Assembly: GCF_001043175.1 (NCBI RefSeq)
Contig: NZ_CP011494.1
Span: 1,736,001-1,800,000 of the forward strand
Reading direction: 5' to 3'
Origin: Marinobacter psychrophilus
Lineage (GTDB): Bacteria; Pseudomonadota; Gammaproteobacteria; Pseudomonadales; Oleiphilaceae
Length of the DNA stretch: 64,000 bases
Shown here in pieces: positions 25,840-34,348 of this stretch. Within the stretch, counting starts at the first letter, position 1. Each line of letters starts with the position of its first letter. A program made the position numbers and the translations under genes. Below the pieces are notes generated by a model. The model did not search any database, was not told the DNA's origin, and saw only the letters and a program-made list of their open reading frames with translations.

Positions 25840-25926
25840 GGCGGCGTGGTGGAATTGGTAGACACGACGGATTCAAAATCCGTTGCTAGTAATAGTGTGG
25901 CGGTTCGAGTCCGCCCGCCGCTACCA
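25840..25926 (+). tRNA. tRNA-Leu (anticodon CAA)
   Basis: An 87-nt class II tRNA with encoded CCA. Acceptor GGCGGCG pairs with CGCCGCT (one G-U pair), T8 and the D-loop GGTAGAC are present, the anticodon stem ACGGA/TCCGT encloses TTCAAAA (anticodon CAA), and the long variable arm is followed by the T arm GGCGG-TTCGAGT-CCGCC. The 3' end is used as the integration site of the island that follows. Confidence 0.95.
25900..25926 (+). repeat. attL: tRNA-Leu 3' end
   Basis: The last 14 bases, GCCCGCCGCTACCA, recur exactly at 34335-34348. Extended to 27 bp, the copy at 34322-34348 differs at only four positions. This is the left attachment site and reconstitutes a functional tRNA 3' end. Confidence 0.9.
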
Positions 25927-26039
25927 CGGGGAGATTTTTACACCTCCTCATACCTCGGAAATACCCCTATAAATCAATCTTTTAGGCCAAAATCAAGCCC
26001 CCAAGCCTCTTGGTGCTTACCCACACCAGTACTAATTTT

Positions 26040-26081
26040 CTTGTACACAGCCTTGTACACTGGCGGTTCGTGTGTACAAGG
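26040..26081. repeat. CTTGTACAC direct and inverted repeats at integrase start
   Basis: CTTGTACAC occurs at 26040-26048 and 26052-26060 (12-bp period). CCTTGTACAC at 26051-26060 faces its exact inverse GTGTACAAGG at 26072-26081 across 11 bp. The same dyad recurs inside the integrase gene at 26356-26384 (10-bp spacer). Position suggests integrase arm-type sites or an autoregulatory operator. Confidence 0.7.
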
Positions 26082-26089
26082 ATAGTGCC

Positions 26090-27319
26090 GTGAAACGATC
26101 AGCTATTAAGCGTAGACCCCTCGCAGACAGTGTTCTCAGTGCCTTAGATCTAGATGCCAAGGATTACAGGGAGCGTGACAGCGCTGGGCTGTATTTCCGT
26201 GTACAGAAGAATGGCAGCAAATCCTGGTTGCTACGGTACAAACGCCCTTGCGATACGTGGGCCTGGAAAGGTCTGGGCGGATACCCAGGTGTGTCGGGTA
26301 AATTGGCACGTGAGAAGGCCAGAGACTTATTAAATCATTCCTCAGGCGGTAAAGACCTTGTACACATGAGTTCGTGTGTACAAGAAAAGATGACTTTTAA
26401 AGAAGCCGCTGAAGACTGGTATGACCGTAAGGTGAAGGCAGGCCGCGTAGCGGGTAGCCTGAAACAATACGGTCTGTATCTGAATAAAGACATCTATCCG
26501 GCCATTGGCCACAAAGCGTTGGATGCAGTCACACGATTAGACTGTGCGGCGATCCAATCCAAGATGGAAGCCCGTGGTGCCGGTGCCATTGCCGGTAAAG
26601 TGAGAATCTGGATCAATCAAATATTTTCACTGGCGATGGCTCAAGGCCATTGCACTGTAAACCCCGCAAGTGAATTACGGTATCTGGCTCAGCAAGGTCA
26701 TCAGGAAACGCCGCACCCTCATCTATTAGAAGACGAGTTACCGGCTTTCCTTATGGCCCTTAGAAAATCTACGAGTAAACAGATCACCTTAATCATGACA
26801 CGCCTGGTGCTGCGTACAGCTTGTCGCCCAGGCATGGCACGTTTCAGTGAATGGGTTGATATGGATTTGGATAACTCTTTATGGACGATACCCGCTGCAA
26901 AAATGAAGATGCGTCGAGATCACATTATTCCGTTGTCACCTCAAACAGTGGCTGAACTGCGAACCATGCACGAAACGTCAGGCGTAGGTAGGTATGTGTT
27001 CCCAGGCTTTGGTCCTAAGAACCCAACGATGAGCGAGAACACAATTAATAAGTGTCTGCGGTTGGTTGGGTACAAAGGCAAGCTCGTAGGTCACGGTGCC
27101 AGGCACACAGCCAGTACGTTGTTGCGTGAACATCGTTGGGACAAAGACTACGTAGAGATGCAGTTAGCACACGTTGAGGGCGGTGACGCTGGTGTGTACA
27201 ACCAGGCCCAGTACTTGGATAAGCGTAGGGAAATGATGTGTTGGTATTCGGACTACCTGGATTACCTTGAAACGGGTAAGGGTAAGGGTAAGAGGCCGAT
27301 GCACCTTTTAACTGAGTAG
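26090..27319 (+). CDS. int: Island tyrosine integrase (P4-type, DUF4102 N-terminal domain)
   Basis: A site-specific recombinase that inserts and excises the island at the tRNA-Leu 3' end. About 409 residues from GTG 26090: N-terminal arm-binding domain (GLYFRVQKNGSKSWLLRY), core-binding domain (FKEAAEDWYDRKV), and a C-terminal catalytic domain with Arg in RTACRPGMARFSEW, His/Arg in HGARHTASTLLRE, and the nucleophile Tyr in YNQAQYLDKRREMM. Start GTG 26090 has AAGGA 7 bp upstream; an alternative GTG at 26072 lies inside the inverted repeat. Appears intact. Confidence 0.92.
   Translation: MKRSAIKRRPLADSVLSALDLDAKDYRERDSAGLYFRVQKNGSKSWLLRYKRPCDTWAWKGLGGYPGVSGKLAREKARDLLNHSSGGKDLVHMSSCVQEKMTFKEAAEDWYDRKVKAGRVAGSLKQYGLYLNKDIYPAIGHKALDAVTRLDCAAIQSKMEARGAGAIAGKVRIWINQIFSLAMAQGHCTVNPASELRYLAQQGHQETPHPHLLEDELPAFLMALRKSTSKQITLIMTRLVLRTACRPGMARFSEWVDMDLDNSLWTIPAAKMKMRRDHIIPLSPQTVAELRTMHETSGVGRYVFPGFGPKNPTMSENTINKCLRLVGYKGKLVGHGARHTASTLLREHRWDKDYVEMQLAHVEGGDAGVYNQAQYLDKRREMMCWYSDYLDYLETGKGKGKRPMHLLTE
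26356..26384. repeat. Second copy of the TTGTACAC dyad inside int
   Basis: CCTTGTACAC, a 10-bp spacer (sharing GTTCGT with the upstream copy) and GTGTACAAG. It lies within the coding sequence, where chance recurrence of such a dyad is unlikely. Confidence 0.65.
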
Positions 27320-27395
27320 TCTGAATAGCACTGTTCATGATGGCTTCGGAATACGTGTAGATGCCCGAGAGTCGGAACTTCACCGGAGCCATCTT

Positions 27396-27572
27396 ATCAT
27401 CACGTTCTTTGAAACCATTCGGGCAGCGGTCATTACTGATTCTACGGCGATCCAGGATTCCAGTATGTTCGGACGGGTAGGGAACAACCCGTTTGAGACA
27501 GGTGCTCTGGATTTGCCAGGGGCTTTGGATGAGACACTTGTGATGCAGGGTGCTCTGGGACCGTTCAACTAA
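27396..27572 (+). other. Open frame without clear start (possible gene remnant)
   Basis: The frame ending at TAA 27570-27572 reads ETIRAAVITDSTAIQDSSMF and on to GALGPFN, of protein-like composition, but it has no convincing start codon or ribosome site and is shared with int sequence upstream. It could be the 3' end of a decayed gene displaced by int. Family not recognised. Confidence 0.2.
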
Positions 27573-27587
27573 AATAGGAGTAGACAC

Positions 27588-27617
27588 AAAAAAGCCTCAT
27601 GATTCATGGGGCTTTTT
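27588..27617. terminator. Bidirectional terminator
   Basis: AAAAAAGCCTCAT...ATGGGGCTTTTTT forms a long stem (one G-U pair) with A and T runs on both sides; it serves the plus-strand frame ending at 27572 and the minus-strand lipoprotein gene. Confidence 0.75.
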
Positions 27618-27622
27618 TCTAT

Positions 27623-27898
27623 TTACCGACAGTAAAAATGCAGTGCGTATGCTCGTTTCGCAGAGGCAAAACCTACGCTACGAGCGCCTCTCGTACCCTT
27701 AATGATGTGAGTGATCAAGCCTTGTTCTGAGCACTTAACATCTGCTTGCCCATACATACTGTTCACCATGTCTGCAAACCCAAATTCAGATTCATCCATG
27801 ATCATGTACTGGTTTTCGTCTGTGCTGTGCATTTGTGGGGCCGATGAACAGCCCACGAGAAAAAGTGACATAAGGGTTAGTGTCAGGATAAATTTCAT
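27623..27898 (-). CDS. Small putative lipoprotein
   Basis: 91 residues from ATG 27898, with a lipoprotein signal (MKFILTLTLMSLFLVGC, lipobox LVGC) followed by SSAPQMHSTDENQYM. The mature part has two further cysteines and no family I recognise. AGGAT lies about 6 bp before the start; an upstream ATG at 27931 is unlikely because it would bury the signal peptide. An island gene of unknown function with its own terminator. Confidence 0.7.
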   Translation of the reverse strand: MKFILTLTLMSLFLVGCSSAPQMHSTDENQYMIMDESEFGFADMVNSMYGQADVKCSEQGLITHIIKGTRGARSVGFASAKRAYALHFYCR

Positions 27899-27917
27899 AC
27901 AGATCCTATTCGGGGAA

Positions 27918-27948
27918 GTAAAAAACCCCAAGGAGTTCCCTAGGGTTT
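27918..27948 (-). terminator. Terminator of the 63-residue membrane-protein gene
   Basis: On the minus strand a stem AAAACCCTAGGGA / TCCTTGGGGTTTT (two imperfect pairs) is followed by a T run; it lies just after the stop at 27955. Confidence 0.6.
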
Positions 27949-27954
27949 TACAGG

Positions 27955-28146
27955 TCAGTCACGCTTGTCTTCATCTCCGCTATTTGCTGCGGCAACACAA
28001 ATAAAGGCGATAAAAAATATTCCGCCTACTGAGATGGCCACGGAGACTGCCACTGATATGACAGAGAATACGAACCCTCCAAAAAATGCGAGGGCCGTAA
28101 TCAACGCAGCGCACAAACCTTTACCTATTGCTCGTATAAGTGTCAT
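27955..28146 (-). CDS. Small membrane protein, unknown
   Basis: 63 residues, almost wholly hydrophobic between residues 10 and 53, probably two membrane helices with a Gly hinge (VAISVGGIFF), ending in the charged tail NSGDEDKRD. AGGCGG precedes the ATG. It is followed by a terminator and preceded by two nonsense-broken genes on the same strand. No family recognised. Confidence 0.55.
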   Translation of the reverse strand: MTLIRAIGKGLCAALITALAFFGGFVFSVISVAVSVAISVGGIFFIAFICVAAANSGDEDKRD

Positions 28147-28158
28147 AGCATCCGCCTA

Positions 28159-28479
28159 TTAACAAAACAGCTTCTTACTCTTTGCTGGTTCGTCTTCAAC
28201 GCTGTCGTTTTCGGCGGGTTCGTCTACGTCAAACGGTGGGGTCTCTTCAGGTTCAACCACTTCAACCACTTTAGGTACTTGAGTAGTTTAAGGCTTGGAT
28301 TCTGGTACAGACTCCTTCACTGGCTCTGTGGGTGTTTTGGCAGCAGCAGGGGTACGTTTAACTAGTACTTTAGGAATGTCTACCTGGTCGTCCTGACTTC
28401 CTAGCACCACTTCGGCACTGACACTCTGACCGCCTTTACGTGTGACGAGAAATTCCACATCCTTTAAAGGACTGGTCAT
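28159..28479 (-). pseudogene. Small acidic Pro/Glu-rich gene broken by an in-frame TAA
   Basis: ATG 28479 opens a frame of 63 residues (MTSPLKDVEFLVTRKGGQSV onward), interrupted by TAA at 28288-28290. The same frame then runs on with matching composition (TTQVPKVVEVVEPEETPPFD ... EPAKSKKLFC) to TAA at 28159. One C-to-T change (CAA to TAA) would explain the break. The charged Pro/Glu-rich C-terminal half continues across the stop, which is why I read it as one gene. It overlaps the HTH gene upstream. Function unknown. Confidence 0.6.
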
Positions 28480-28627
28480 ACCATTCTTTAAACTCTTTTG
28501 GGCGGCCTGGATCGTTAGTACGTTTGCGATTCAGTTCAGCAACACTGATACCAAGAATAGCCGCAGCTTATTTTGTGCCAATCTGCACGTATGCAGGGTT
28601 AATAATTTTCTGGTTCAAATTATTCAT
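28436..28627 (-). pseudogene. Small helix-turn-helix protein gene broken by an in-frame TAA
   Basis: ATG 28627, preceded by AAGG, opens MNNLNQKIINPAYVQIGTK, then TAA at 28568-28570. The frame continues as AAAILGISVAELNRKRTNDP, GRPKEFKEWYDQ and on to a stop at 28436. The continuation is a clear HTH of the AlpA/MerR-like type, where the stop sits at the position usually held by Gln or Glu before AA-IL-GIS. It overlaps the next gene by 44 bp. Probably once an island regulator or excisionase. Confidence 0.6.
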
Positions 28628-29085
28628 TTATACATACCTTTTCTGGTCGATGTAGGCCGTAACCCGATCGACAATGATTTGTTTAATGGTTTGGGTGGGT
28701 ATCCACTTGCTGGGTACGGTGTTTGGCTTTATGGGTTCCGATATAAGAAGCCACTAGATAAGCGGAGTTTGCTAAGAAATTACCGCACTAGGAAAGACCA
28801 CATATGAGAAAGTCTAGAATGAAATTCAGATTAAGTTAGCACTTAAGCCTGAAAGCTACGCTCTATAAATCTTTGAATGGCTCTCAGAAAAGCATTTTAG
28901 CCAATAAAAAAATAGTTGAGTCAGAACTCTCTTGCGACGAATTAACGAATGAAGATTAAGCGACCAAAGCTATCAGATTAAAATGACGCAGCTAATAAAC
29001 AGTTAACCACACTGCGATCCTGTTGAGACAATCTGGCGATGATTTTAATTTTTTACGAAGACAATACGAATATATCCGACGAAAA
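28628..29085. other. AT-rich non-coding stretch with possible IS3-type debris
   Basis: No intact gene. At 28803-29020 scattered matches to an IS3-family orfA appear: MRKSR at 28803, ATLYK near 28857, and KRPKLSD-N-AANKQL near 28957, interrupted by stops and frame changes. The rest shows nothing I can name. Confidence 0.3.
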
Positions 29086-29102
29086 TGCACCTTCATGGAT
29101 GC
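29086..29102 (+). promoter_or_regulatory. NtrC-like element 1 upstream of hupE
   Basis: TGCACC-N5-GGATGC: the left half matches the NtrC half-site TGCACC exactly, the right half is poor. It lies about 210-225 bp before the -24 element. Confidence 0.3.
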
Positions 29103-29184
29103 TGCGCGGAATCTGCCGTTGTTTGAAGCAACACTTTCACAGTAAATGAAAACAGTCCTTTGTACGCACTAAGATAAGGCGAGG

Positions 29185-29201
29185 TTCCCCACGTTGGTGC
29201 G
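29185..29201 (+). promoter_or_regulatory. NtrC-like element 2 upstream of hupE
   Basis: TTCCCC-N5-GGTGCG matches 9 of 12 fixed positions of TGCACC-N5-GGTGCA and lies about 110 bp before the -24 element, a usual enhancer distance. Confidence 0.35.
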
Positions 29202-29269
29202 ATTTATGGTTGTAGTAATTGACTTTTTATTATTGAGTAAACAAAAATACAACAGCAAAAAAAACCTGC

Positions 29270-29282
29270 AATCAATACGTTA
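29270..29282 (+). promoter_or_regulatory. IHF binding site consensus
   Basis: AATCAATACGTTA matches WATCAANNNNTTR at every fixed position. It sits between the NtrC-like elements and the sigma-54 promoter in an AT-rich stretch, the place where IHF bends DNA at sigma-54 promoters. Confidence 0.65.
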
Positions 29283-29310
29283 TATGATTTATGCAATTAA
29301 AAAATATTTA

Positions 29311-29326
29311 TGGCATAAGTTTTGCT
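29311..29326 (+). promoter_or_regulatory. Sigma-54 promoter of the nitrile hydratase operon
   Basis: TGGCATAAGTTTTGCT fits TGGCAC-N5-TTGCW with GG and GC doublets 12 bp apart, ending 51 bp before the hupE start. It is as good as the two flagellar sigma-54 promoters in this window. Confidence 0.75.
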
Positions 29327-29377
29327 GTATAAATTATTGCAATTTCGCACATACCATCACATGGAAGCGCTGCAATC

Positions 29378-30001
29378 ATGCACCCACGATATAAAAAAAT
29401 TGCCATGTCAGTTTCTGTTTTACTATTTTTTGTCAGTACAGCGGCATTCGCACACCATCCTATGCAAGGTGAAATGCCAACTTCTTATATTCAAGGACTT
29501 CTTTCTGGATTGGCACACCCCATAATTGGCGCCGATCACCTTGCCTTCGTTATTGGTGTCGGTATCGTGTTTGGACTCGGCGTTACGCGCCCCATTATCT
29601 CCTCAACAGCGATGCTAATAGCGCTTGCTGTAGGCACTCTTCTAAGTTGGTACGGCATAATCCTACCTTTTATTGAAACTATTGTTGCGCTTACGGTAAT
29701 TGCGATCGCCGCAACTGTTGTCTTCAAGCTTCAAATTATGGGTTTTGTTACGTGGGCTATTGCTGCCGCTGCTTTTTGTCATGGGCAGGCGTTCGGGGTC
29801 GCCATTATTGGAGCCGAGCCTACTCCGTTAGTTACTTACCTGATTGGTCTAAGTATTGTACAGATTGCGATGGCTTCCATTATTTACTATCTCACTAAGA
29901 AGATTGCGGCTCGCAGCGCCACACAATTGCGTATTCTTACTGCCGGTGGGGGTGTAGCACTAGGAATCGCAGGAGTCTTATTCATGACATTAAGCGTGTA
30001 A
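29378..30001 (+). CDS. HupE/UreJ family metal permease
   Basis: A 207-residue inner-membrane protein of the HupE/UreJ family, whose members take up nickel or cobalt. Signal-like N-terminus (about residues 1-25), mature start HHPMQGEM rich in metal ligands, then the family motif HPIIGADHLAFVIGVG (about 47-62) and FCHGQAFG near 130. It heads the operon that ends in a cobalt-type nitrile hydratase, so Co(II) uptake is the likely role, like NhlF in Rhodococcus although from a different family (inference). GGAAG is 11 bp before ATG; a start at 29405 is possible. Confidence 0.85.
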   Translation: MHPRYKKIAMSVSVLLFFVSTAAFAHHPMQGEMPTSYIQGLLSGLAHPIIGADHLAFVIGVGIVFGLGVTRPIISSTAMLIALAVGTLLSWYGIILPFIETIVALTVIAIAATVVFKLQIMGFVTWAIAAAAFCHGQAFGVAIIGAEPTPLVTYLIGLSIVQIAMASIIYYLTKKIAARSATQLRILTAGGGVALGIAGVLFMTLSV

Positions 30002-30060
30002 TTGTAGCACTTGCGAAGAAATATCGATGATCTAGATTACAATTCATGGCTGGAGGTCGT

Positions 30061-31062
30061 ATGAAAAAACTCCCTGTAACTCTTATTACTGGTTATCTCG
30101 GGTCCGGGAAAACGACACTTTTGAATCGTATTTTAACTGAGGACCACGGGGAAAAGATTTGCGTCATCGTCAATGAATTTGGCGAAGTGGGTATAGACAA
30201 TGAGCTGATTGTTCATTCTGACGAAGAAATTATCGAAATGAACAATGGATGCATCTGTTGCACCGTTCGTTCTGATCTTATCGATACTTTCGAACGACTT
30301 TTGGGTGAAAACGGCCATTCATTTGATCGGATCATAATAGAGACAACGGGTCTGGCCGACCCGGGACCAGTGATTCAGACTTTCTTCTTAGACGAGCGCT
30401 CGATGTCAGCATTACAGCTGGACGCTGTAATCACAGTAGTCGACTCGGCCAATATCGAGCGCCATTGGGATAGTGATGAGCTTCAAGAGCAAATTGCGTT
30501 CGCCAATGTATTACTTCTGAATAAATCAGACCTCTGTTCTCTTGAAGCCCTTCGAAACATTCGTGATCGGGTACGTCGATTTAATCCCTTGGCGTCCATA
30601 CACGAAACTTCTAATTGTAACGTTCAGCTTGAGAAAATCATGGACATTGGGGCTTTTGACCTTCGAGCTGCCCTTGTTATTGACCCTGAGTTGCTTTCGG
30701 ATACAGATCACGAGCACGAAAACGCAGTTTCGTCAGTCAGCATTCGGCTGAAAGGGACCCTGGATAGCGACCGATTTAATCGTTGGATCAATGAGTTCGT
30801 GCAGCTCCACGGTCCGGACCTGTATCGAATAAAAGGCATACTGGATATGGACGACTCTCCCCGTCGATTTGTTTTCCAAGGCGTTCACATGGTTCTTGAT
30901 GGTCGTCCTGGTCTACCTTGGCAGCCTCAAGATAATCGCATTAGCCAAATCGTCTTCATAGGTCGAAATCTTAACGAGGATGAAATTTCGCGGAGCTTTA
31001 AAGGCTGTCTAGCCTGCTGCGATTTGCCGGATAAGGTTTCTTTAGTCGTTGAATCCGCTTAA
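30061..31062 (+). CDS. CobW/COG0523-family GTPase (putative metallochaperone)
   Basis: A 333-residue P-loop GTPase of the CobW/COG0523 family. Walker A TGYLGSGKTT (about 10-19), the metal-binding CxCC motif in NNGCICCTVRSDL (about 65-77), ETTGLADPGP (switch/Walker B region), LNKSDL for guanine binding, and a C-terminal CobW_C domain ending with an extra GCLACCDLP cysteine cluster. Related COG0523 proteins deliver metal to Fe- or Co-type nitrile hydratases; with hupE before it and nitrile hydratase after it, cobalt delivery is the best reading. ATG 30061 follows GGAGGT; ATG 30046 lies before that ribosome site. Confidence 0.88.
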   Translation: MKKLPVTLITGYLGSGKTTLLNRILTEDHGEKICVIVNEFGEVGIDNELIVHSDEEIIEMNNGCICCTVRSDLIDTFERLLGENGHSFDRIIIETTGLADPGPVIQTFFLDERSMSALQLDAVITVVDSANIERHWDSDELQEQIAFANVLLLNKSDLCSLEALRNIRDRVRRFNPLASIHETSNCNVQLEKIMDIGAFDLRAALVIDPELLSDTDHEHENAVSSVSIRLKGTLDSDRFNRWINEFVQLHGPDLYRIKGILDMDDSPRRFVFQGVHMVLDGRPGLPWQPQDNRISQIVFIGRNLNEDEISRSFKGCLACCDLPDKVSLVVESA

Positions 31063-31110
31063 TGGAATAAGTCCTCTGTCCCGCCGTCTAACAGAATAAT
31101 GAGGTAAGCC

Positions 31111-31617
31111 ATGCAAAATATAACTGCAATGAGTATAGGAATTGGTCTTCTCGGCGCTCTCGCCACATATCTCACCGCTACAGTGCTATTACTTCCTGTG
31201 TGGGTAATATTTATAGCCTGGGCATCATTCTTCGCTGCTGGGGGCGGGATTGGGGGATTAACGAAGTCCATTGCGTCAAACTTGACAGGCGTTGCTATCG
31301 CAAGCCTGAGCCTCTTAGCGGCTACCAGTTTGGGAGGTACTCCTATCGCTGCCGCAATTTGTGTAGGTCTTGGAAGTGCGGCGATGGTGCAATTCGGTCG
31401 TATTGCGATCCTCTCATTTACACCATGTATTGTCTTCGGTTTTGCTTCCCTAGTGGGCACCTCTGCTGCGCTCGGACTTCCGATAACTCATTCTGGCATC
31501 GATAACCCAGCATTTGTAGCAGCTGCGGCAGTTGTGGTGGGGGGAATTTTCGGTATAGCGCACGAAAGCTTGTCTTCTTTTTTAATGAAAAAGAGAGTTG
31601 CTTCAGTAACAGAATAG
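31111..31617 (+). CDS. DUF1097-like inner membrane protein
   Basis: A 168-residue polytopic membrane protein with about five helices and Gly-rich turns. The organisation and the LSFTPCIVFGFASLVG stretch resemble the DUF1097/YcdZ family. No function is established for the family. It lies between cobW and the nitrile hydratase beta gene with short gaps (48 and 51 bp), so it is an operon member; passage of nitrile, amide or metal across the inner membrane is a reasonable but untested idea. Confidence 0.65.
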   Translation: MQNITAMSIGIGLLGALATYLTATVLLLPVWVIFIAWASFFAAGGGIGGLTKSIASNLTGVAIASLSLLAATSLGGTPIAAAICVGLGSAAMVQFGRIAILSFTPCIVFGFASLVGTSAALGLPITHSGIDNPAFVAAAAVVVGGIFGIAHESLSSFLMKKRVASVTE

Positions 31618-31668
31618 CACTGAATAGGCGTTCCTTATATCGCACCGCAAGACCCTGTGGAGGTTGCA

Positions 31669-32388
31669 ATGAAATTACAACATAGTTTGGGGGGCCTGGA
31701 AAATGTTGGGCCCGTTAGTACAGAACGTAATGTATTTGTCTGCGAATGGGAAAAACGGATCTTCGGAATACATATGGCGATGATGTCATTGAGTAATCAT
31801 TTACCAGACCGTCCGGATAACCTCGAGTTTGATAGTGAATGGACTTGGGCAGATCTGCGGAAGGGCGCAGAGGCGATGAATCCGTTCGAGTATTTCAAAT
31901 ACCGCTACTACGAAAAGTGGCTTGGTGGAATTTCAGGGTTCATTATTTCAGAAGGTTATATTACGGCTGAGGAGCTCGAAGATCGCGCGAGCAAATATTT
32001 AGAAGGAGGACCACCTGCTGTGGCTGGTCAAGCTGGGCCGGAGGTCGATGGCCAAATATTGAAATATATGCAGTTTGGTGATTCCCCAAAAAGTGATGTG
32101 GAAAAAACGCCTCGTTTTGCCGAGAAGGATCGAGTGCGTATTCGTGATAATCATGTCACTGACCATACGAAGCTCCCAGGCCATCTTCGAAACAAGATAG
32201 GAACTGTGGTAGATGTAAGTGATGGTACGTACTCATATTTCCAACATACAGGCCCGGATGGCATCGGTGACGCAATGCCTGTCTACACCGTGATGTTTGA
32301 GCAAGATGAGCTGTGGGGTGAGTTGGGCGAACCTAATACACGGGTTTACGCCGATTTGTTTGAAGCTTATCTCGATGTCGCTGAGTGA
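31669..32388 (+). CDS. nthB: Nitrile hydratase beta subunit
   Basis: The beta subunit of nitrile hydratase, which hydrates nitriles to amides in the cytoplasm as an alpha-beta heterodimer. 239 residues: helical N-terminal part (HSLGGLENVGPV, then FVCEWEKRIFGIHMAM, and the YRYYEKWLGG stretch near 85), a linker, and the C-terminal SH3-like barrel (FAEKDRVRIRDNH ... HLRNKIGTVVDV ... YTVMFEQDELWGE). ATG 31669 is chosen because GGAGG lies just before it; a GTG at 31657 would overlap that ribosome site. Beta before alpha is the order of cobalt-type operons such as nhlBA. Confidence 0.93.
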   Translation: MKLQHSLGGLENVGPVSTERNVFVCEWEKRIFGIHMAMMSLSNHLPDRPDNLEFDSEWTWADLRKGAEAMNPFEYFKYRYYEKWLGGISGFIISEGYITAEELEDRASKYLEGGPPAVAGQAGPEVDGQILKYMQFGDSPKSDVEKTPRFAEKDRVRIRDNHVTDHTKLPGHLRNKIGTVVDVSDGTYSYFQHTGPDGIGDAMPVYTVMFEQDELWGELGEPNTRVYADLFEAYLDVAE

Positions 32389-32403
32389 AAAAAGGGGTTT
32401 GAA

Positions 32404-33021
32404 ATGCAAAGTTTATTCAAGTATGTAGATGATCGTGAGCAAAAAAATGCCGCTCGAGCGATGGCGCTTGAGGACTTACTTATAAAAAAAGGGCTTATTA
32501 CACAAGACTCTATTGATACTATTCTTGAATATTTTGAAACAAAGATGGGTCCGTTCAATGGTGCTCGAATCGTGGCTCGCGCCTGGACTGACGAGTCTTT
32601 CAAGCAGTATCTGTTGCAAGACACGCCAGGTGCGATTGCATCCATGGACTTCCCTACCGGAATGGCTGGAGCTGAAGGGGAGCATATGAAGGCTGTTGCG
32701 AATGCTCCAAGCGACCACAATATGATCATCTGCACGCTGTGCTCATGCTACCCATTTCCTGTTCTCGGTCTTCCGCCATACTGGTATAAAGATCCGTCCT
32801 TCAGATCTCGCGCAGTTCGTGAACCGAGAGCAGTATTAAAAGAATTCGGAGTAAACTTACCGTCTGATGTCCAGGTCCATCTCTGGGATAGCAGTGCTCA
32901 GATTCGTTGGTTTGTAATTCCAGAGCAGCCTCTAGGTACTGAGGATTGGACTGAAGAAGAGTTGGTGAAGTTGGTTACCCCGGAGTCGATGATGGGTGTA
33001 GCTATGGTTGAGAAACCATGA
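32404..33021 (+). CDS. nthA: Nitrile hydratase alpha subunit (cobalt-type motif)
   Basis: The catalytic subunit, 205 residues. The metal-binding claw C-T-L-C-S-C lies at residues 110-115; Thr after the first Cys marks the cobalt type (Ser marks the iron type). In known enzymes two of these cysteines are oxidised to sulfinic and sulfenic acids and bind the metal with backbone amides. Downstream, PVLGLPPYWYKDP, REPRAVLKEFG and LWDSSAQIRWFVIPEQP are family-typical. One oddity: CYPFP where most family members read CYPWP. It lies 15 bp after nthB. Confidence 0.95.
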   Translation: MQSLFKYVDDREQKNAARAMALEDLLIKKGLITQDSIDTILEYFETKMGPFNGARIVARAWTDESFKQYLLQDTPGAIASMDFPTGMAGAEGEHMKAVANAPSDHNMIICTLCSCYPFPVLGLPPYWYKDPSFRSRAVREPRAVLKEFGVNLPSDVQVHLWDSSAQIRWFVIPEQPLGTEDWTEEELVKLVTPESMMGVAMVEKP

Positions 33022-33058
33022 TGCATTGAAAAAAATTCGTTTTGGAGACGCGTCGTCC

Positions 33059-33080
33059 CTCGGCCAGAATATAGGCCGAG
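33059..33080 (+). other. Stem-loop between nthA and the accessory gene
   Basis: A perfect 7-bp stem CTCGGCC/GGCCGAG with an 8-nt loop and no T run; it may stabilise the nthBA message or reduce expression of the downstream gene. Confidence 0.45.
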
Positions 33081-33126
33081 AATTTACTCCTCAGTAAAAC
33101 AGCTACTCTTGGTAGGTTGACCAGCT

Positions 33127-33477
33127 ATGCAAACAAAATTTGAACACTATGCTGTGACAAATCTCTTAGGAGGCACTCAGTCTCCCCCAAGATATAACGG
33201 AAAACTTCAATTTGAATCAGAGTGGGAGAGTCGCGCGTTTGGACTGGCGCTCGTGTTATCCAAAGCAGGCTATTTTGAATGGGAGGCTTTTCAGCAACAA
33301 CTGATTCGGGCCATCGCAGAGTGGGAGCAGGCTAATGATCTACGTGATCCATCATGGAACTATTACGAAAGATGGTTGCTTGCTCTGGAGCGCGTGGTTC
33401 GATCTTCAGGGTTGATTGACTCCCTAGAGACAGCTGATGATGTGGCAGGGATTCGCCAAGGCGTACTCCAGTCATAG
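33127..33477 (+). CDS. Nitrile hydratase accessory protein (beta N-terminal-like)
   Basis: A 116-residue homologue of the N-terminal half of the beta subunit (FESEWESRAFGLALVLSKAG, then NYYERWLLALERVV near 80), as in NhlE/P14K-type activators. In the J1 system the E protein pairs with alpha, loads cobalt and exchanges with beta (self-subunit swapping). Its place after alpha and its homology to beta support that role here. It lacks the C-terminal SH3-like barrel and is followed by a hairpin and no further operon gene. Confidence 0.85.
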   Translation: MQTKFEHYAVTNLLGGTQSPPRYNGKLQFESEWESRAFGLALVLSKAGYFEWEAFQQQLIRAIAEWEQANDLRDPSWNYYERWLLALERVVRSSGLIDSLETADDVAGIRQGVLQS

Positions 33478-33812
33478 AAATGCACAAACCAAGGACGCGT
33501 TACTCTCATAATTAAGAATCAGTTTGTAATATCGGGCTGCGGTCGCCCGATAAATCTTGAGTCAGGCAAACGCGTTTTCTGCCAGATGTCTGAGCTTGTA
33601 CAACGGCCAGTCGAGTCCCCTGTTGCTCTTACTCGAATTTATCTTTTTGAGCATAATAGCGCTCTCTCCGAGCGGTTCCTCCTTCACCACATATTGTATA
33701 GCCAACATAATTTTTGTGCGCTATTAGCGGTAGGTGCCAATAAATCAGCACCTACATCTTGGCTCGCCAATTGCTGACACTGAACTCCTCACCCATTCCA
33801 TGAGGAATCAGC
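33478..33812. other. Intergenic stretch after the nitrile hydratase operon
   Basis: 335 bp without a gene. It holds the hairpin at 33531-33551 and a second 8-bp stem, GTAGGTGC (33730-33737) with GCACCTAC (33748-33755), near where the left end of an IS66 element would be expected; a terminal inverted repeat was not recognised. Confidence 0.4.
33531..33551 (+). terminator. Hairpin after nitrile hydratase operon
   Basis: A 7-bp GC-rich stem ATCGGGC/GCCCGAT with a 7-nt loop; the T tract after it is weak (AAATCTTG). Confidence 0.5.
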
Positions 33813-34160
33813 ATGACGCTGACCGAACGAGCACAGGTCTGGCAGCGGCATATCACTGACTGGCAAGTCTCCGGCGTGTCCGGCAGCGCTTACTGCAAGC
33901 AACAGTCACTGGTTTATCATCAATTTGTTTATTGGCGCCAGAAGCTAACCCAGACTGAAGACTGTCCAAAGCAGGCGCAGGCGTCCACCAGCTTCGTTGA
34001 GCCTGTGCATGGGGTGGGGCAGATGAGTGAAGCAGCCAGAATTATAGGTCAGTTAAACAATGCGACACTCGGTACACCGGTGGCCCTTGTGGCTGTGTTC
34101 TACTTTGGTGGCGGTGCCCTGGAAGGCGTGGTGAGCAGGATGAAGACCAAGCCAAGTTGA
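33813..34160 (+). pseudogene. IS66-type tnpA fragment fused to unrelated sequence
   Basis: Residues 1-70 (TLTERAQVWQRHITDWQVSG, SGSAYCKQQSLVYHQFVYWRQKL) are an IS66-family accessory protein TnpA with its HTH. From about residue 70 the sequence changes to SEAARIIGQLNNATLGTPVA and a single hydrophobic segment (LVAVFYFGGGALEGVV) not found in TnpA. No tnpB or tnpC follows. I read this as IS66 debris joined in frame to the 3' part of another small membrane-protein gene. The frame is open and may still be expressed. Confidence 0.65.
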
Positions 34161-34196
34161 CGGGGAGAGTAGGCCCACGTAGTCTTCTCGAACAGA

Positions 34197-34221
34197 AAGC
34201 CCCCTCCATTGGGGGTTTTTT
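34197..34221 (+). terminator. Rho-independent terminator near the island right end
   Basis: AAAGCCCCC / GGGGGTTTT stem (one G-U pair), 6-nt loop, then TTTTTT. Confidence 0.85.
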
Positions 34222-34265
34222 CTACAGGCCAACAGTAATATCAGGATCTTAGGAGAGAAAAGCGT

Positions 34266-34284
34266 GTATACCCTCCTGTATACC
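34266..34284. repeat. GTATACC direct repeats near attR
   Basis: Two GTATACC units 12 bp apart, each with a GTATAC palindrome, lie 38 bp before attR. The 12-bp period equals that of the CTTGTACAC repeats near attL, so these could be recombinase or excisionase sites. Confidence 0.4.
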
Positions 34285-34321
34285 TAAATGTTATTGACCT
34301 GTAAGTTGTTGTTTTACAAGC

Positions 34322-34348
34322 GCGGTTTGGGTTAGCCCGCCGCTACCA
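34322..34348 (+). repeat. attR: partial copy of tRNA-Leu 3' end
   Basis: GCCCGCCGCTACCA at 34335-34348 is identical to the tRNA 3' end; the 13 bases before it match the tRNA T arm at nine positions. This marks the right end of the island, 45 bp before queA. Confidence 0.9.

Follow-up and report, generated by a model that had tools for sequence, protein, structure and literature searches.

Gene content of the tRNA-Leu island

We focused on an island next to a tRNA-Leu gene of Marinobacter psychrophilus, which carries a nitrile hydratase operon. The window, meaning the whole 64-kb stretch analysed, spans positions 1736001-1800000 of a genome that has 3,998,597 bases on a single contig. Coordinates are those of the window unless a phage record is named. 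The tRNA-Leu(CAA) gene (25840..25926, + strand) is followed by the open reading frame (ORF) of a tyrosine integrase (26072..27319, + strand). Further right, six co-directional + strand ORFs lie between 29378 and 33477. All score above curated cut-offs for their families, and the operon is intact. An earlier note, made from the letters alone, had proposed an integrase beside the tRNA gene, attachment (att) repeats at both ends and this six-gene operon; each of these was found where it had been placed.

The first operon gene (29378..30001) encodes a HupE/UreJ-type permease. It has both the PF04955 domain (92.1 bits) and the motif HPIIGADH, a form of the HupE/UreJ signature HPXXGXDH (PMC7689651). 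From its context, the permease is predicted to be a cobalt importer. The second gene (30046..31062) encodes a COG0523, or CobW-type, GTPase with cobW and CobW_C domains and a GCICC motif; the closest solved structure is YjiA. Next is a DUF1097 membrane protein (31111..31617; PF06496, 100.8 bits against a gathering score of 24.6) with six predicted helices. The remaining genes encode the nitrile hydratase beta subunit (31657..32388; TIGR03888, 210.1 bits, cut-off 152.2), the alpha subunit (32404..33021; TIGR01323, 288.1 bits, cut-off 249.85) and an accessory protein (33127..33477; TIGR03889, 66.8 bits, cut-off 46). The thiocyanate hydrolase gamma model scored 173.9, under its cut-off of 291.45. 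With both subunits above their cut-offs and an accessory protein alongside, the predicted enzyme is a nitrile hydratase (EC 4.2.1.84). Its alpha subunit contains CTLCSCY, the cobalt-type form under the rule, set out in a passage of PMC2770081, that CTLCSC denotes cobalt and CSLCSC iron. The best solved relatives of alpha are nitrile hydratases, several of them labelled cobalt-containing. In an Rfam scan only the tRNA reached its gathering score, and a cobalamin riboswitch was not found. A promoter scan returned 4 sites against 9.8 expected, an uninformative result.

The flanks of the operon match an N4-like phage

The integrase (PF00589, PF22022 and PF13356; start possibly GTG at 26090, from comparison with the phage copy) is 89% identical to that of the IMG/VR contig 3300032040_000005 (73,935 bases). 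This 73.9-kb record (L128/L231), which carries a joined attP, was our phage reference. A 1306-amino-acid (aa) ORF at its start matches the PHROG virion RNA polymerase family (E=1.3e-299) and, at 34% over its length, the N4 gp50-like protein of Pseudomonas phage LIT1. The giant virion RNA polymerase (vRNAP) predicted from this ORF marks the contig as N4-like. Downstream of the phage integrase come a DNA polymerase and a helicase-like ORF, and near it are a tail protein and a reverse transcriptase (L128 7375-8334). The contig also has a 116-base repeat pair (L128 6953-7068 and 7144-7259), in which 22 of 22 mismatches fall at template adenines. Mismatches confined to adenines are the mark of a diversity-generating retroelement (DGR).

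N4-like phages were long considered strictly lytic. Temperate members are not new, since PMC10654107 describes 40 N4-like proviruses and four uncultured N4-like genomes, of subfamily SF8, with adjacent integrase and DGR. L128 resembles these temperate, Schitoviridae-type viruses in its vRNAP, integrase, reverse transcriptase and template/variable repeat pair. The word Marinobacter has 0 occurrences in the main text of that paper.

In the island, five blocks can be aligned to the phage record. They are collinear and run in one direction on the phage map, because the ends of the record share 127 identical bases and so can be joined. The first block, the integrase arm (25900..27454, + strand), has 88% DNA identity to phage 53310-51756. 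It stops inside a small opposite-strand phage gene (L128 11217-11465), which is truncated in the island. This gene was considered as an excisionase, a candidacy by position alone; it has no Pfam or PHROG match. The next three blocks make up a second prophage piece (27444..28488, - strand), with 90% identity to phage 768-1 (27444-28211) and then 79% (28085-28359) and 78% (28409-28488) identity to pieces of phage 73935-73520. Within or near this piece are the C-terminal end of the vRNAP (about 27339-27577 on the + strand; 77 residues), a lipoprotein gene (27623-27931, - strand) and a small membrane ORF (27955-28146, - strand). The fifth block, the other prophage arm (34045..34348, + strand), is 86% identical to phage 53587-53284. 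It includes the right attachment repeat and the end of a 133-aa phage ORF (phrog_9646, function unknown), for which a holin role was considered and no supporting family match was found.

Between these blocks, 28489-34044 has no match to the phage record, save for a divergent second scrap of the small integrase-proximal gene (28472..28627, - strand; 60% aa identity to L128 and 56% to the related contig L130). The nitrile hydratase DNA lies in this unmatched stretch. Taken together, the vRNAP sequence between the att sites and the matching DNA blocks identify the island, by similarity, as the remnant of an N4-like prophage and not an intact prophage. No other of 97 genomes had a vRNAP match at E<=1e-20. 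The left part had earlier been described as AT-rich debris. Its base composition is indeed low in guanine plus cytosine (0.42-0.49 in all eight 1-kb steps from 26 to 34 kb; mostly 0.51-0.58 elsewhere), but the sequence between 25900 and 28488 is largely recognisable phage pieces rather than debris.

Attachment sites and an empty site in a sister genome

The 3' end of the tRNA gene (25900-25926) is the left copy of a 27-base direct repeat, with the right copy at 34322-34348. The copies are identical at 23 of 27 positions. Their last 14 bases, GCCCGCCGCTACCA, match exactly and occur only twice on the + strand of the window. In L128, both prophage arms and the core form one unbroken stretch: window 34045-34348 equates to L128 9552-9855, window 25900-27454 to L128 9829-11383, and the two meet at the 27-base core. 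The L128 attP core is identical to the right repeat (27/27). The cores of related contigs L129 and L130 differ from it by 2 and 4 bases, and that of L130 is identical to the tRNA copy (27/27). We regard the repeat as beyond chance, because these 27 bases also make up the attP of a phage that has one arm on each side of the repeat.

We compared the tRNA-Leu/queA junction between relatives, as the earlier note had advised. QueA was sought in 58 genomes including our own and found in 57; loci were returned for our genome and 29 relatives. The nearest relative (G004, QueA 95%) has an exact empty site. Its tRNA end, ...GCCGCTACCA, is joined directly to the sequence that follows the right repeat in the window; it continues as TATATTTATAAGCCGCACC, and the right repeat of the window continues as TATACTTATAAGCCGCACC. 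The tRNA-Leu(CAA) end is within 138 bp of queA in 25 of the 29 relatives. The comparison supports an insertion at tRNA-Leu(CAA). The note had reasoned that an island would be in doubt if all relatives had the operon at this place without an integrase, or if none had an empty junction. We found the cassette in just one of 97 genomes, and empty junctions exist in relatives, so neither objection applies. As a separate observation, the other four relatives (L007, L015, L021 and L028; side list L043, L044, L045 and L046) have inserts of 1.0-2.3 kb between tRNA-Leu and queA, in which the integrase profile described below found no integrase; by these inserts, the site has been used repeatedly.

All four att sequences are thus available for one integrase-bearing N4-like phage: the sister genome supplies attB, the contig attP, and the island attL and attR. 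Therefore, integration is testable at base level. Compared with the viruses of PMC10654107, it is the chromosomal footprint and all four att sites that are here read to the base, and the chromosomal site is what we add to known temperate N4-like phages.

The intact integrase ORF, the two att repeats and the exact empty site might also be expected of a purpose-built integrative island, still mobile, with the nitrile hydratase unit as cargo. Such an origin is highly improbable. Phage arms account for the integrase and for both ends, phage remains lie between these arms, and the small gene next to the integrase is truncated. We built a profile from 73 viral integrases and ran it on 85 loci holding nitrile hydratase genes. 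As a positive control, it recovered the integrase of the window and four others in relatives, yet it detected no tyrosine integrase in the 85 loci and hence no six-gene cassette beside another integrase. The other 60 genomes of the genus that were searched contained no close match to the window integrase. Among the island ORFs scanned there was no relaxase, transfer or replication gene, so the element does not class as an integrative and conjugative element. Nor is there an amidase gene in the island; six amidase-signature genes lie elsewhere in the chromosome. Self-mobility is unlikely and the element is probably immobile now. We do not, therefore, uphold the description of the island as a self-sufficient mobile unit.

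Related cassettes are widespread

The alpha subunit of the island is present in one of 97 genomes; another four members of the genus carry a nitrile hydratase that differs from it, at 40-47% identity. In a class sample of 369, an alpha search at E<=1e-65 returned our own genome and two others at 51-54%. Scanning genome_contigs confirmed 588 relatives of alpha; we kept the best 80 loci, which biases the counts that follow towards near relatives. We divided these into 55 nearer (alpha identity at least 58.5%) and 25 more distant loci, and scored genes within 4 kb of alpha. Among the nearer loci, the GTPase occurs in 39, DUF1097 in 40, both in 26 and HupE in five. None of the three was found in the 25 more distant loci. 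All six genes are together in two of the 55, cyanobacterial L091 and L094, in a different order, and a five-gene core without HupE is found in many more. Hence, the gene set is not new, and the operon represents one version of a widespread cassette. In passing, we noted that cyanobacterial L081 and L091 each carry at least two genes for nitrile hydratase alpha in a span of 20 kb, and that genus members L032, L034, L038, L040 and L047 have a HupE-like gene near their different nitrile hydratase (alpha about 45%).

Named examples illustrate the cassette. The conjugative plasmid IRBL74_p of Agrobacterium pusense (NC_022536.1) encodes a GTP-binding protein, DUF1097, nthB, nthA and the accessory protein in the same order, with alpha at 70.9%. 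The plasmid differs in having CbtB-CbtA downstream instead of HupE, and a GlxA-type regulator that the island lacks. The closest named alpha subunits are those of Spiribacter sp. SSL99 (81%) and a Spiribacter salinus metagenome-assembled genome (MAG; 80%), with DUF1097 at 74% and 79%, respectively. The alpha and DUF1097 matches are probably on the same contigs, because the contigs are equally long. No HupE from these contigs was among the 120 listed of 141 matches. On a Gloeocapsa plasmid, the GTPase accompanies the three nitrile hydratase genes and two amidases, without DUF1097. Four neighbouring transporter ORFs were assigned to families: NicO in L064 and L066, CbtA in L061 and CbiM in L073. 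These varied importers support a role in cobalt supply for HupE here. Metal import, metal handling and enzyme do occur together, as the earlier note held, both in the island and, with other transporters, elsewhere, a conjugative plasmid included.

Neither the GTPase nor DUF1097 is an invariable partner, being absent within 4 kb of alpha in 16 and 15 of the 55 nearer loci, respectively. Mycobacterial and Streptomyces cassettes (L086:8491-9246, L077, L079, L083, L084 and others) have DUF1097 but no GTPase, and their alpha motif is CTLCSCF rather than CTLCSCY. We also rejected the idea that DUF1097 is strictly tied to nitrile hydratase. Across a phylum sample drawn without selection, 12 of 398 genomes had a DUF1097 match, and only four of the 12 adjoin nitrile hydratase: our own and three at 48-57%. 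The other eight (31-39%) have no nitrile hydratase within their 1.5-kb flanks.

A COG0523 GTPase is paired with cobalt-motif enzymes

Cobalt-type nitrile hydratase operons have the order beta-alpha-activator, according to a section of PMC7193024. The island shares with the operons described there its gene order, the CTLCSCY motif and a TIGR03889 accessory protein; it adds the COG0523 GTPase, DUF1097 and HupE. Passages of PMC2770081 and PMC9164220 state that the COG0523 protein Nha3 clusters exclusively with iron-type nitrile hydratase, and that cobalt-type enzymes apparently need no GTPase. The island shares with those iron-type systems a COG0523 GTPase with CxCC adjoining nitrile hydratase genes. 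It differs in its cobalt motif: the alpha subunit beside the window GTPase has CTLCSCY, and the same motif was found in 38 of the 39 GTPase-bearing loci, with CSLCSCY in one. The GTPase of each of the 39 has GCICC or GCVCC. We regard the pairing of COG0523 with the cobalt motif as the most testable novelty, because the published accounts, in the passages cited, tie COG0523 activators to iron-type enzymes.

Entry of the operon into the prophage

We consider it very likely that the island is an N4-like prophage shell at tRNA-Leu(CAA), with an intact cobalt-type nitrile hydratase operon in a gap of the phage map. Briefly, a temperate N4-like phage of about 74 kb would have integrated at the 3' end of tRNA-Leu(CAA) by means of its own tyrosine integrase. 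About 51 kb of the prophage, lying between its integrase arm and the end of the vRNAP gene, would then have been lost. About 20 kb of later phage genes would also have gone, and the operon and a scrap of an IS66 element now fill that gap. The comparisons above demonstrate the prophage origin, the att sites, the empty site, the gene content and the recurrent company of these genes, whereas cobalt use, the protein roles and the sequence of events are inferred.

Several points weigh against this account. The reference is an uncultured contig, and the sizes of the missing parts, about 51 kb (51755-769) and about 20 kb (73519-53588), assume that the ancestor shared its gene order. The AT-rich stretch at about 28640-29377 had no match in the searches made. 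The scrap at 28472-28627 does not fit a simple history of two deletions; it may point to another, related phage or to a rearrangement. The choice of cobalt over iron rests on the motif and the neighbouring genes, and an ALMT-like channel fold for DUF1097 is putative. In favour of the account, the distances of the GTPase, DUF1097, beta and accessory proteins track the alpha distances from cassette to cassette (rho 0.53, 0.50, 0.54 and 0.64; p=0.002, the smallest possible in a Mantel test with 499 permutations), a signal that may reflect host relatedness. Inheritance as one block is not proven, because nearest relatives differ: cyanobacteria for the GTPase, Streptomyces for DUF1097, Rhodospirillales for beta, Paenibacillus for the accessory protein and rhizobia for alpha.

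The right border of the operon suggests how it might have arrived. An IS66-family remnant (33730..34044, + strand; NF047593), which the earlier note did not mention, lies directly between the operon and the resumed phage arm. It comprises the 5' end and N-terminal part of tnpA, the sole part found of the tnpA, tnpB and tnpC set of an IS66 element. It is cut where phage sequence resumes and is fused to the truncated phage ORF (ORF 33813-34160). A second IS66 piece elsewhere in the chromosome (G000:C1:345877-346130; L216) is 82% identical to window 33730-33985. These remains favour a later insertion. Specifically, the operon could have been put into the resident prophage after integration, by IS66-related or other transposition or by recombination, with deletion of neighbouring phage genes; the lack of nitrile hydratase DNA in the phage record agrees with this. 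However, just one end of one IS66 copy remains, and a search left of the operon returned the query alone, with no second IS66 copy or target duplication. We give this route slightly less than an even chance.

Alternatively, the phage itself may have delivered the operon. A relative of L128 would have carried nitrile hydratase as late-region cargo and converted the host, with decay of phage genes later. The operon does sit in a single gap of the phage map, and the prophage is the sole mobile element recognised around it. Even so, the closest phage contig has no such operon, a search of IMG/VR for alpha relatives gave seven pattern matches and no confirmed case with the patterns used, and the IS66 scrap at the boundary suggests another route. 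We think delivery by the phage improbable. Only a little better placed, and still unlikely, is recombination between two related elements in tandem at the same tRNA gene, the operon having arrived with the second. The divergent copy of the small integrase-proximal gene just left of the operon speaks for such an event, as do L129 and L130, whose attP is of the same type, that of L130 being identical to the tRNA end. Against it, the window has two att repeats only, with no third core on its + strand.

Proposed function of the operon

Returning to the preferred account, in which a prophage shell holds the operon, the encoded proteins could form one pathway. HupE would import cobalt for the COG0523 GTPase to hold, deliver or guard. 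The accessory protein, which is NhlE-like, would help the alpha subunit to mature. The alpha and beta subunits would convert nitriles to amides by hydration. DUF1097 is a putative small membrane channel, for substrate or product, and host amidases encoded elsewhere would complete the pathway.

We tentatively suggest, at rather below even chances, a broader model. In it, two chaperones would mature the cobalt-type nitrile hydratases of this lineage: the COG0523 GTPase and the subunit-swapping protein, which is NhlE-like. A cobalt importer of interchangeable type would serve this route, as would DUF1097 in the role of a dedicated membrane channel; the copy described here would be one parked in the shell of a temperate N4-like phage. 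If the two-chaperone route is true, the accepted split, with a GTPase for iron and swapping for cobalt, fails. The many cobalt-motif cassettes with GTPase, NhlE-like protein and DUF1097 offer a clean genetic test of metal delivery, a question of practical interest for enzymes used in amide production.

Two further loci were noted in passing. Upstream of the cassette in a soil MAG, a tRNA-Met gene lies at a distance of about 0.5 kb (L048:2437-2513), without an integrase by profile. On the A. pusense plasmid pR76 (L243:4552-7945), a nitrile-hydratase-like alpha gene is found between two SH3-like ORFs, together with aquaporin, DUF302 and CbtB-CbtA genes, and the locus adjoins a Tn3 transposase.

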